A DNA stretch of 10,077 nt from Labilithrix luteola (GTDB lineage: Bacteria > Myxococcota_A > Polyangia > Polyangiales > Polyangiaceae). Under the pieces are notes generated by a model. The model did not search any database, was not told the origin of the DNA, and saw only the letters and a list, made by a program, of their open reading frames with translations. Of this stretch, positions 3,328 to 8,927 are shown piece by piece. The stretch spans positions 1 to 10,077 of the forward strand of contig JAMFST010000543.1 of the NCBI GenBank assembly GCA_026225435.1, given 5' to 3'. The position numbers were made by a program, and so were the translations under genes. Position 1 is the first letter of the stretch; every line of letters begins with the position of its first letter.

Positions 3328-6300
3328 TCACGCTCCGCGTCGGCGTGGTGCGTTGGCCACGCTCGCCACGATGAGCACGAGCTCTTGAGGGTCGATCGGC
3401 TTGGCCACATGCGTCTGGAATCCTTCGACGAGGGCGCGCCGTCGATCCTCCGAGCGCGCGTAGGCGGTGAGCGCGATCGCCGGCGTGGAACCACCGGCGT
3501 CGGCGCCGCGAGCACGTACCTCACGCAGGAGGTCATAGCCGTTCCGCTCGGGCATCCCGATGTCGCTGACGATCACGTCGAAGCGATCGGCGGCGAAGTG
3601 ACGCAGCGCCTCGGTGACGCTGGCGGCCGTGGTCACCTTCGCGGCGCAGTGCTCGAGCACCGCGCGGAGCAGGTCGCGCGCGTCGGGCTCGTCGTCGACC
3701 ACCAGCACGCGCAGGCCGGCGAGCTCGGGCGGACTCTGCACCGGATCGTCCGCGGCCCGCGCCGGCGCGTCCTCGCTGGCCGACGTCATCGACGGGGTGA
3801 GCGCGCGCGTCGCCAGGATGGGCAGCTGGACCACGAAGGTCGACCCCTGCCCTTCGCCGGCGCTCCGTGCCTCGACCGTCCCGCCGTGCAGCTCGACGAT
3901 GCTCTTCACGATCGCCAGCCCCAGACCGAGGCCGCCGGTCTTGCGGGTGATGGCTCCGTCCTGCTGGCGGAAGCGGTCGAACACGTACGGCAGGAACGGC
4001 GCGGAGATGCCGCTGCCGGTGTCGCGGACGGCGATCTCCATGGCCGTCGGAAGCTGCTGCATCCGCACCTCCACGCTCCCTCCGCGCGGGGTGAACTTCA
4101 CCGCGTTGGACAGGAGGTTCCACACCACCTGCTGCAGACGCCCGGCGTCGCCCGAGACCGCGCTCGGAGCCCCCTCCACCGCGCTCGTCAGCTGCACGCC
4201 GCGCGCGTCGGCCGCCGGCTGGACCACGTCGATCGCCGCGTCGACGATCTGCTGCAGCTCCACCGGCTGCACGTTGAGCCGCATCTTGCCGGAGATGATC
4301 CGCCCGAGGTCGAGCAGGTCCTCGATCAGCTGGTTCTGCGCGACGGCGTTGCGCACCACCGTCTCCACCGCGTGGGCGCGGCGCGCTACCGGGAGCGCGT
4401 CGCTCTGCAGGAGTCGGCTCCAGCCGAGGATGGCGTTGAGCGGCGTGCGCAGCTCGTGGCTGATGGTGGCGAGGAACTCGTCCTTCAGCCGCGTCGCCTC
4501 CTCCGCCTTGTCACGCGCGCTGCGCTCCGCGTCCACCGCCACCTTGGCGTCGCGGTAGAGGCGCGCGTTCTCGATGGCCAGCGAGGCGCGCTTGCCGATC
4601 TCCTCGGCGAGCGGCACGTCCTCCGGCACGTAGGCGCGCCCGGGCGTGGTGAGTGCGAAGAAGAGCGCGCCGATCACCTGCCCTTGCCGGGTGAGCGGCA
4701 CGCCGATCCACGACTGCAGGTTCATGGCCCGCAGCTGCTCGAGGTGCTCTGGCCTCTCCACGTACGGCCGGTACATTTCTACGTCGACGTGCGCGCGCAG
4801 CTCCGTCTTGCCGGTGCGCACCACCTCGGCGTACCCGAAGGGCACCCCCTCGCGGAAGAAGCGCTCCTCGCGCACCGCGCGGACCACGCTCGCCACCGCC
4901 GCGTCACCGTGGACCGCGGCGACGTGGGCGCGCACCCCCTTCTCGCCGCGCAGGTAGACGGCGCACAGCTCGCCGACGCGCGGAACCGCGAGCTCGGCGA
5001 TGCGGGTCAGCGTCTCCTCGTAGTCGAGGGTCGACGAGAGCACCGCGCTGGTCTGCGCCAGGAGATCGATCGCCTCGGTCGCGCGCCGTCGCTCGTCGAT
5101 GTCGGTGTTGGTCCCGACCCAGCGGACGATGCGCCCCTCGCTGTCGCGCAGCGGGCGGGCGCGGGTGAGGAACCAGCGGTAGATCCCGTCGGCGCCGCGG
5201 AGGGGGAACTCCATCTCGAAGGAGGAGCCGTCCTGCATCGCGCTGCGCCAGCTGGCGAGGACCCCCTCGGCGAAGTCGGCGCGGTGGACCTTCAGCCAGC
5301 CGTCCCCCTGCATCTCCTCGAGCGTGGTGCCGGTGTACTCGTACCAGCGGCGGTTGAAGAACTCGATGTAGCCGTCGGGGCGCGCTTGCCAGGCGAGGTC
5401 CGGCAGGTTGTCGATCAGCTGGCGGAACTGCTCGTCGCTCTCGTCGGCGCGCCGGCGTGCCTCCACCTGCGAGCTCACGTCGATGGTGAAGCTGGTGATG
5501 CCGTCGACCGCTCCGTCGGCGTCGCGCGTCGGGCTGTACACCGCGTTGACGTGGCGCGTGGTCAGCTCGCCCTGGTGGCGGAGCGTGACCGGCAGCTGCG
5601 TGCCGACGAAGGCGTTCCCCGTGCGGTAGACCTCCTCGAGGATGGTCGGAAAGGCCTGCCCTTCGATCTCCGGCAGCACGTCGCGCAGCGGCTTGCCCAT
5701 CACCTCGCTGGCCGGCCGCCCCCACAGCTCCACGGCGCCGGCGTTGGCCACCTCGACGACGTGATCCGGCCCGCGCAGCAGCGAGATCGCCGCTGGCGCG
5801 CTGGAGAAGAGAGCGGCGAAGAGCTTGCGCTGCGCCTCGTTCTCTCGCAGCGCGGTCTCGAGATCGGCCGAGAGCTGGCTGCGCCTCCGCTCCGCCTCGC
5901 GCAGGGTGGCCGACAGATCGGTGATGACCACGCAGAGGTCGGCGCGCGCCTCGTCCCCCGGGTTGGCGGCGGCGGAGACGTGGACGGGCAAGATGCGGTC
6001 GCCTCCGCGGAGGATGGTCGCCTGCTCGGCGCGCTGCGCAGGGCCCGCCGCTGCCCGGAGCAGCTCCTCGAAGGTGGCCAGCGCCTCCGGGGGCACGTAA
6101 CTGCGCAGCTGCGAGCCGAGCACGCGGTCGAGCGGCGTGCCGAGGAGGGTGGCGAAGGCGCCGTTGGCGTAGAGCACCACGCCGCTGGGGCTGACGATCG
6201 CCGCCCCTTCGGTCATCCCTTCGACGATGCGCCGGTAGCGATGATCAGCCCCCTGCAGGGTGAAGATGCGCTCCCCTTCGGGGCCGCCGATCACCAGCGC

Positions 6301-7194: not shown

Positions 7195-8927
7195 GAGCGG
7201 CGCCCCATGCGGTCGCCGAGCTTCGACTGGCGCATGTGCTCCCAGCGCTCGCTGGCGATCCGATCGACGAGCACGTGCTCCGAGTCGGCGCTCTTCGACT
7301 CCTCCTCTGCCGCAGCGAGCTCACCGCGCAGCGCCTCCATCTGCGCTTCGATGAGCTGCCGCCGCCGGGCGAGCTCCCGCTGGCGACGCGCCCACTCCTC
7401 CTTGCGCGCGGCCCCTCGCTGGCGCGCGTCCGCCTCCTGCGTCAGGCGCGCCGAGCCGATCATCACCCCGTTGGGGCCGACGTAGGCGTCGATGAGGCCG
7501 AGCCCCTTGGCGCTGATGACGAACTCGCGCACCTGGTTGGAGTGGGCCATCCCGCGCGACTTGAGGATGTACATCGCGCGATTGCGCTCGCCGGCGTGCT
7601 CCAGATCGCGCAGCTCGATCCAGGTGTCGATGAGCGAGGAGACGCCCACCTCCGTCTCCTCGAGCCCCTGCGGACCGGCGAGGTAGGTGAACAGGCCGGT
7701 GATCCCCTTCAACTTCAGGTAGTCGAAGAGGCGAACGAGCATCGACTTCACCTCGTGGAAGTTCCCCCCGGCGATGAGGCTGGAGATGGGGTCCACGATC
7801 ACCGCGCGCGGCCGGAGCTTCTCGATGGCCATGTGCATGGTGACCAGGTGCTGCTCGAGGCCGAAGATCGTCGGACGGGCGGCGATGATCGACACGGTGC
7901 CGTCGGCCACGTGGGGCTGCAGATCACAGCCGATGGATCGCATGTTGCGCAGGACCTGGGCGGCCGGCTCCTCGAGGGCAAAGTACAAGATGCGCTCGCC
8001 GCGCGTCGCCGCCGCCTTGGTGAACGAGGCGGCCACGCTGCTCTTGCCGGTGCCGGCCGTCCCGGAGACGAGCACGCTGCTCCCACGGAAGTAGCCCTTG
8101 CCGCCGAGCATCTCGTCGAGCGCGGGGATGCCGGAGAGGACGCGCGCCTGGGAGACGGGATAATCGAGCCCGATGCCGGTGATGGGGAGGACGCTGATGC
8201 CGTCGTCGCCGATCAGGAACGGGTACTCGTTGGTCCCGTGGCTCGAGCCGCGGTACTTCACGACGCGCACGCGGCGGGTGGCGATCTGATCGTTCATCCG
8301 CTGGTCGAGCGCGATGACGCAGTCGGAGACGTACTCCTCGAGCCCGTGACGGGTGAGGGTGGCGTCGCCGCGCTCGCCGGTGACGACGGCGGTGACCCCC
8401 TTGTCCTTCAACCAGCGAAAGAGGCGTTCGAGCTCGGCGCGCATGACGCCAGCGTTGGTGAAGCCGGAGAAGAGCACCTCGAGGGTGTCGAGGACGATGC
8501 GCTTGGCGCCGATGGAGTCGATGGCGTGCTCGAGGCGCACGAAGAGCCCAGACAGGTCGTAGCCGCCGGTCTCGAGGATCTCGCTGCGGTCGACGTGGAT
8601 GTGATCGATGGCGATCTTCTTCTGGCGAATCATGGCCGGCAGATCGACGCCGAGCGAGGCGACGTTCTGCACCAGGTCTTCCTCGGTCTCCTCGAAGGTG
8701 ACGGCCACGCCCGGCTCGCCGTTCTTGGCGCCGTGGATGAGGAACTGCATCCCGAGGAGCGTCTTGCCGGAGCCCGCGCTGCCGCAGATGAGCGTGGGGC
8801 GGCCGCGGGGGAAGCCGCCGGAGGTGACGGTATCGAGCCCCAGCACGCCGGTGGCGGCCTTGGGGAGATCGGTGCTCGCCTTGGCGGCCTTCGCCGGCCG
8901 GGCGCGCCGCTTCGCGTTCGTGGCCAT
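7191..8927 (-). CDS. kaiC: KaiC-like circadian clock ATPase/autokinase with two RecA-like domains
   Basis: 578 residues from ATG 8927; a TTG at 8972 could add 15, but homology does not need them. The first RecA-like domain has Walker A GSAGSGKT (49-56), the catalytic Glu pair 79-80 and Walker B ending in Asp147. The second has GTAGTGKS (289-296), Glu319-Glu320 and Asp379. Both ATP sites therefore look active. The phosphorylation loop [11 protein letters not shown] aligns with Synechococcus KaiC T426/S431/T432 as Thr425/Ser430/Ser431, an S-S rather than S-T site. Canonical KaiC has about 519 residues; here the end is longer, with a charged coiled coil at about 496-545 and a basic tail where the KaiA-binding loop would be. 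No kaiA is nearby. It is expected to be a cytoplasmic hexamer that binds KaiB. It heads the coupled operon and its stop overlaps the kaiB start by 4 bp. Confidence 0.95.

Follow-up and report, generated by a model that had tools for sequence, protein, structure and literature searches.

What does a KaiC protein do in a myxobacterium when it is encoded end to end with two KaiB proteins and a histidine kinase, and how might such a system pass on its state? The locus that raises this question spans positions 3,328–8,927 of a 10,077-nucleotide (nt) stretch of DNA from Labilithrix luteola (contig JAMFST010000543.1), which we analysed as a whole and call the window. The workings and outputs of non-cyanobacterial KaiBC systems are not yet settled, and the structural and kinetic model, Rhodobacter sphaeroides, has one KaiB. 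Our analysis confirmed the original prediction, made from the sequence alone, of a kaiC-kaiB-kaiB-hybrid kinase operon, and showed that the locus is a further member of an already known cassette that is spread over many phyla. Its gene content and order are consistent with the proposal that this is a self-contained Kai unit which lacks KaiA and is linked to a kinase. We put at a little over one half (roughly 0.55) the probability that, by analogy with R. sphaeroides, the locus would encode a KaiA-independent, ATP/ADP-driven KaiBC hourglass of the KaiC2 type, an energy-charge switch that gates its own histidine kinase.

An overlapping Kai unit with no KaiA match

Open reading frame (ORF) calling and Pfam/NCBIfam scans placed all four genes where they had been predicted, on the minus strand. 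The dual-ATPase KaiC matched PF06745 in two stretches (E = 4.7e-106), and both small proteins matched the KaiB family PF07689 (KaiB1, E = 1.3e-25, 89.3 bits; KaiB2, E = 9.7e-23, 80.1 bits; cut-off 27). The kinase merits its description as a multi-sensor hybrid, with PAS matches in three stretches together with GAF, HisKA, HATPase_c and REC domains. The predicted single overlapping unit also held up: the kaiC/kaiB1 and kaiB1/kaiB2 junctions are GTGA overlaps and kaiB2 runs 17 nt into the kinase gene, so the four genes are probably translationally coupled. The most likely kaiC start is the ATG at 8,927; a longer ORF of 593 residues, from a TTG, also exists.

In the genome to which the window belongs (G000; 6.8 Mb, 1,502 contigs, 80.5% complete), both full KaiC-domain matches and the only two KaiB matches fall at the cassette. 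PF06745 matches four more times, more weakly: no single match exceeds 42 bits, and those in one frame reach 68 bits together. Within this 80.5% complete assembly no match to KaiA (PF07688) was found by a search in which the Synechococcus elongatus control matched, in line with the predicted absence of kaiA. The single observation bearing on the predicted non-photosynthetic lifestyle, the lack of a match to the reaction-centre protein PF00124 in the same assembly, agrees with it. Among the matches listed, the closest named relatives of KaiC and KaiB are from Myxococcota/Polyangiaceae, which supports a myxococcal origin.

KaiC resembles the R. sphaeroides type

Among solved structures, the window KaiC was matched best by R. 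sphaeroides KaiC (8dba, 619 bits), whereas cyanobacterial KaiC scored about 308 bits, a difference that we count in favour of the hourglass. R. sphaeroides KaiBC belongs to the KaiC2 subgroup (Protein Data Bank (PDB) 8DBA, 8FWI and 8FWJ); its KaiC autophosphorylates without KaiA, is ATP/ADP-responsive and is bound by KaiB at the CI domain in the ADP state (PMC10076222; this and the other papers cited are drawn on for the passages that bear on these points). The same paper ascribes Ser-Ser phosphosites and a long C-terminal tail, which forms a coiled coil, mainly to KaiC2. The window protein has two KaiC ATPase domains, each with a Walker A motif and a catalytic EE, and Ser-Ser sites (GVSSL) in place of the Ser/Thr pair. 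KaiC2 tails are some 50 residues longer than those of other KaiC proteins, and here the stretch that begins with NQVREF at position 464 and ends with residue 578 is 115 residues long; the alignment to 8dba reaches residue 561 of the 593-residue TTG-start ORF, within this tail. Judged by its sequence, the window KaiC is of the R. sphaeroides 'KaiC2' type.

Two patterns of conservation also count towards the hourglass. The catalytic EE in CI and CII and the Ser-Ser pair are intact in 67 of 67 KaiCs longer than 450 residues from tandem-KaiB clusters, window included (ORFs of 450 residues or less were dropped), and 63 of these 67 have at least 108 residues counted from NQVREF to the end. Of eight allosteric positions listed in PMC10076222, seven are the same in the window KaiC when counted from S413 (S413, S414, W419, Y436, L438, V449 and R450); at the eighth, listed as Val421, this count gives L in R. 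sphaeroides and E in the window. KaiC relatives fill at least 7,998 clusters at E ≤ 1e-100. A phage origin of KaiC was rejected for lack of any match in the phage collection at E 1e-20.

A cassette that is widespread but rare

The original prediction had allowed that the class might not be new, and it is not. Methylobacterium extorquens AM1 has kaiC1-kaiB2-kaiB1-kaiR1, with the same four-gene order, two kaiBs and a Ser pair in KaiC; KaiC1 is phosphorylated on this pair and the deletion strain is sensitive to ultraviolet light (UV) (PMC8069551). AM1 differs from the window in its phylum and in having a second cluster, kaiC2-kaiR2, and its kaiB numbers are not matched to our KaiB1 and KaiB2. This mutant phenotype and the R. 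sphaeroides biochemistry (PMC10076222) are in print, and the original prediction understated both.

Three surveys were made; loci are called module-bearing by the N-terminal module of the kinase, which we name HKN and describe below. In survey (a), GTDB contigs were scanned with an alignment biased to KaiB2 and the best 80 of 100 related loci were kept. Surveys (b) and (c), free of this bias, searched 377 Myxococcota genomes with PF07689 and 289 genomes of the class of one Methylobacterium with PF07689 and the module profile. Survey (b) contributed 22 loci from 21 genomes (L117–L138; G296 gave two loci and the weak G006 none), and the annotated set, with the window and the 80 scan loci, comprises 103 KaiB-bearing loci.

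An adjacent KaiB pair is present in 72 of the 103 (window, 66 of 80, 5 of 22) and the full order kaiC-kaiB-kaiB-module kinase in 64 (window, 58 of 80, 5 of 22); the window has all four in this order on one strand. Directly before the pair stands kaiC in 68 of 72 cases, and directly after it a module kinase, again in 68. The rest stop at an edge or lack a call, and L071 and L078 (Methanoculleus) have kaiC after the kinase. Recurrence of one layout across the set argues that the linkage is not chance. Related clusters had been expected in other proteobacteria; they exist, but this was too narrow, since module-bearing loci fall in 16 phylum-level groups that include methanogens, cyanobacteria and Bacteroidota (from 78 KaiCs, of which 12 have no group). 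In three other Methylobacterium genomes (L064, L070 and L088; AM1 is not among the loci) the gene after the KaiB pair carries HKN. The four-gene set is also found on plasmid p3 of Pararhizobium qamdonense, typed as conjugative (L160, 4226–8280; module 85 bits), so the cassette can sit on mobile DNA.

Within Myxococcota, the linkage was found in the window's genome and five others (four in the same family), with the same kinase start beside each KaiB pair. KaiB matched in 23 of 377 genomes, 22 of them above the cut-off, and the 354 without a match make the system patchy in this phylum. With the centre genome of each survey left out, the pair is carried by 5 of the 22 Myxococcota genomes with a KaiB match (5 of 376 overall) and by 3 of the 13 such genomes of the Methylobacterium class (3 of 288), where KaiB matched in 14 of 289 genomes, 10 above the cut-off. 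The cassette is widespread but rare, at about 1% of genomes in the unbiased surveys.

Two KaiB lineages in fixed order

The two KaiBs and the kinase had been named in the original prediction, which missed that the KaiBs are distinct and that the kinase N terminus is associated with kai genes. The pair appears to represent two old lineages kept in fixed order, with moderate branch support. In a tree of 71 first and 70 second copies, made without either KaiB of the outlier L110, none was misplaced (branch supports 85–88); with the outlier counted, 1 of 143 KaiBs was misplaced in a FastTree tree, on a branch of negligible support (0.001; the 42-residue second KaiB of L113 was dropped from this set). 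In a tree resting on few columns, copy-order labels changed twice, compared with a mean of about 48 after shuffling (0 of 500 shuffles as low), and one starred branch (99) holds 70 of 71 second copies. Mean identity is 50% between the first and second copy of one locus, 66% among first copies and 53% among second copies. In 2qke chain numbering, position 8 is W in 81% of first copies and Y in 93% of second copies, position 48 is L in 68% and Y in 79%, and position 49 is Q in 21% and 91%, respectively (the second KaiB of L110 was dropped from residue and fold-switch counts). The KaiBs of R. sphaeroides and Falsirhodobacter, each with the first type alone beside kaiC, place with the first lineage. 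Two cyanobacterial references place between the lineages, so the tree does not fix the root or age of the split.

That the lineages stay apart in fixed order and have residues of their own, and that strong HKN matches were found solely with Kai in the genomes searched, makes it quite improbable that KaiB1 and KaiB2 are redundant duplicates, a pair that merely raises KaiB dosage beside a kinase that is an operon bystander. Such redundancy would nonetheless fit the KaiB signature kept in both proteins and the existence of clusters with one KaiB, which include R. sphaeroides, Falsirhodobacter and 13 module-bearing loci (2 of the first type, L103 and L122, and 11 of the second, in a scan that favoured the second).

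A further difference may concern fold switching. Triple mutation of I68, V83 and N84 in R. sphaeroides KaiB favours the fold-switched state (PMC10808063, in which a tree of 487 KaiB variants was built). With our numbering anchored by placing I, V and N at 68, 83 and 84, a charged or polar residue occupies at least one of these positions in 23 of 70 second-lineage but 2 of 72 first-lineage KaiBs, among rows that are related and in which KaiB2 is more variable throughout; the window KaiB2 has R at position 83. This is a hint that KaiB2 might lean to the fold-switched state. Mirror-tree analysis of 63 loci gave partial correlations with the module, given KaiC distance, of 0.385 for KaiB2 and 0.251 for KaiB1 (both permutation p = 0.001, species history uncontrolled); the two values were not compared statistically and we draw no conclusion from them. 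One 203-residue protein (P0023) contains two KaiB units in one chain, although by eye the junction may be a frameshift and not a fusion.

A kinase N-terminal module found at kai loci

The first 75 or so residues of the kinase have no convincing match in Pfam, NCBIfam or PDB. The core pattern of HKN is E-A-E-x-T-x-x-A-I-R-x-G-x-V-D-A-L-V ... F-T-L-x-G-A-D-x-x-Y-R. Identity with a known family was rejected, since all matches were weak: the best in Pfam, LysR_substrate, was hit by 8 of 24 members at E values of 0.013 or worse, and the best in NCBIfam had E = 0.0067. A SasA-like KaiB domain was likewise rejected: when the module profile was set against that of the second-lineage KaiBs, the probability was 0.2%, and the kinase has no KaiB Pfam match.

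Searches used a 54-column profile from alignment A3, and those in the phylum and the class scored the top 17 and 23 candidates per genome, respectively, so extra weak copies could be missed. Nine of the 377 Myxococcota genomes have HKN, each as a single copy that lies within 150 bp of a KaiB match (eight HKN matches are strong and one weak: G363, 25.9 bits). In the Methylobacterium class, the four strong matches (the centre genome and three others) mark exactly the four genomes with a KaiB pair, three weak ones (about 21 bits) lie in genomes without a KaiB match, and the ten other KaiB-positive genomes gave no strong match. Of the 14 KaiB-positive genomes, nine were inspected: three that have a KaiB pair and six from the ten without a strong match. 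In at least three of those six, kaiB precedes a kaiC of the ST type. Among 30 distant kai genomes, chosen as cassette carriers, HKN matched 32 times, always at a kai locus; for 30 of the matches this was confirmed by position, and the two additional copies in G383 lie in L048 and in a second full cluster. Strong HKN matches are thus confined to kai loci in the genomes searched.

The R. sphaeroides kai-operon kinase also carries HKN (57 bits). In strain KD131, where the kai genes sit on plasmid pRSKD131A, the locus shares with the window a two-domain KaiC with Ser-Ser sites and a long tail (a coiled coil in R. sphaeroides), a first-lineage KaiB and an HKN kinase directly downstream. It differs in its order, kaiC-kaiB-HWE kinase, with no second kaiB in the 10 kb read, and in the kinase itself, annotated as HWE-type and 478 residues long where that of the window is a multi-sensor hybrid. 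As HKN occurs in this kinase and in the 13 single-KaiB loci, it marks this KaiC type generally, not the pair.

Kinases near kaiBC have been described before: in the R. sphaeroides operon (PMC5520375), as kaiC-B-PAS/HK in Rhodopseudomonas palustris and R. sphaeroides (PMC4794148) and as PAS kinases near the Rhodospirillum rubrum kai clusters (PMC10931921). The 2011 Ramlibacter genome paper (PMC3164672) distinguishes three kaiC contexts, the first being clustered kaiC-kaiB with ST or SS sites and mostly a kinase or GGDEF/EAL gene downstream; its section on these contexts does not mention two kaiB lineages or HKN. Its own kinase module, RtaNt, belongs to the kaiB-less context. Among the open-access papers listed by our search we found no account of the two KaiB lineages or of HKN.

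The window shares KaiC/KaiB homology and a kinase as output with the cyanobacterial KaiABC-SasA system (in part PMC3164672), but has no KaiA match, Ser-Ser sites and a kinase without a detected KaiB-like sensor domain. Another Myxococcota locus, L128, also has KaiC beside KaiB and kinase functions. Unlike in the window, KaiB and kinase share one reading frame there, in an ORF directly after kaiC (7671–9587) that also matches PAS. This layout resembles that of SasA, here in a non-cyanobacterium, and no HKN was called. In L134, one ORF (1284–3452) combines a KaiB domain and a receiver with a kinase-like region between them by eye, and no KaiC was called in the fetched stretch. ORFs with a receiver and a weak, divergent KaiB match lie beside kaiC in two Myxococcota genomes (L125, 8726–9433; L138, 7502–8197).

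Proposed mechanism and alternatives

The cycle that we propose is carried over from the R. sphaeroides papers to a locus whose gene order, overlaps, motifs, tail, KaiB lineages and module association we observed; physical interactions, timing and output in L. luteola would follow by inference. KaiC would assemble into hexamers or dodecamers through its C-terminal coiled coil and, at high ATP, autophosphorylate the CII Ser-Ser pair without KaiA. After CI hydrolysis it would bind KaiB, which would stimulate the ATPase and keep KaiC unphosphorylated as ADP rises. KaiB1 would fill the role of the R. sphaeroides KaiB, and KaiB2 may be a dedicated partner: it might share CI sites with KaiB1 or compete for them, and so link the state of KaiC to the kinase. 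The kinase might dock through HKN, sense further signals through PAS and GAF, and pass the phosphoryl group to its fused receiver and perhaps to a free one. The confinement of strong HKN matches to kai loci in the genomes searched and the presence of HKN in the R. sphaeroides kinase count in favour, as do the Ser-pair phosphorylation and UV phenotype of M. extorquens KaiC1 and the KaiB-PAS-kinase ORF of L128.

Several points weigh against the hourglass. Of 14 KaiCs whose loci have no KaiB pair and no module call, 8 (5 of them ST-type) also have 114–137 residues counted from NQVREF, so the tail alone is not diagnostic of KaiC2. Most myxobacterial KaiCs are reported to lack the two phosphosites and the KaiB-binding B-loop, with few accompanied by kaiB (PMC11832031), although the window KaiC has both phosphosites. 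At several conserved positions KaiB2 departs from KaiB1, and it might fail to bind KaiC. With no KaiB-like SasA domain detected in the kinase, docking through its N terminus is something that we infer. Finally, knocking out the Group C kaiC2B2 of Synechocystis left rhythm and fitness essentially unchanged (PMC9846126), and the M. extorquens phenotype is one of stress survival, not timekeeping (PMC8069551).

The last two points would also suit a regulator of stress or energy status that keeps no time, in which KaiC reads ATP/ADP or damage under modulation by the KaiBs, and stress survival genes are switched on by the kinase without delay or hourglass. KaiC1 is described as a positive regulator of temperature-dependent UV resistance in M. 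extorquens (PMC8069551), a Legionella KaiB has been implicated in responses to stress (PMC10808063), and cassette carriers include methanogens and many non-cyanobacterial groups. We regard this account as possible but distinctly less probable than the hourglass: the phosphorylation and ATPase residues are those of R. sphaeroides KaiC, an ATP/ADP-set hourglass (PMC10076222), and in R. palustris both timing-like properties and fitness in 24-h cycles depend on kaiC (PMC4794148).

Within the hourglass reading, a more specific idea, which we advance tentatively and would not bet on, is that the KaiC2 clock is a four-component machine. KaiB2 would be specialised for fold switching, with a bias towards the binding-competent fold. 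It would act against or after KaiB1 on KaiC and hand the state on to the kinase via a clock-only N-terminal module, a non-KaiB answer to SasA. Both KaiB2 and the docking module would then have escaped attention through the use of R. sphaeroides, which lacks KaiB2, as the biochemical model.

Neighbouring genes

Apart from the cassette, the window holds a receiver-only response regulator whose motif resembles the receiver domain of the kinase, and three genes of other kinds (Table 1). A REC gene directly follows the module-bearing kinase in 10 of the 81 loci that have one, window included; the free receiver is a possible phosphorelay partner of the kinase, by a weak linkage.

Table 1. Features of the window and their coordinates
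Feature	Position	Strand	Description
Hydrolase	1–1818	-	GH15/trehalase-like; beside cassette, no evident link
Oxidoreductase	1629–2696	+	Old-yellow-enzyme type; beside cassette, no evident link
Receiver-only response regulator	2742–3197	-	ATG at 3197; 130 bp downstream of kinase
Hybrid histidine kinase	3328–6417	-	1,029 residues, ATG at 6417; N-terminal module, PAS, GAF, HisKA, HATPase_c, REC
HKN (our name), kai-associated N-terminal module of kinase	6210–6372	-	About 54 residues; from alignment and profile searches
kaiB2 (second-lineage KaiB)	6401–6784	-	127 residues; GTG start overlaps kaiB1 stop (GTGA)
kaiB1 (first-lineage KaiB)	6781–7194	-	137 residues; GTG start overlaps kaiC stop (GTGA)
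kaiC	7191–8927	-	578 residues, ATG at 8927; CI and CII ATPase domains, catalytic EE in both, GVSSL, long C-terminal tail
Divergent ORF upstream of kaiC	9039–9596	+	Proline-rich protein, no Pfam match

Implications

The four-gene layout was already published, and the parts worth following are the KaiB lineages and the kinase module. The second KaiB and the kinase front end are little-studied parts of these systems, and HKN is a sequence marker for finding KaiC systems of this type. Were the original kit to comprise both KaiB lineages together with a clock-associated kinase module, the R. sphaeroides model would be a reduced version of it, and an in vitro mixture of KaiC, KaiB1, KaiB2 and the kinase would directly test how such a timer sends its output.

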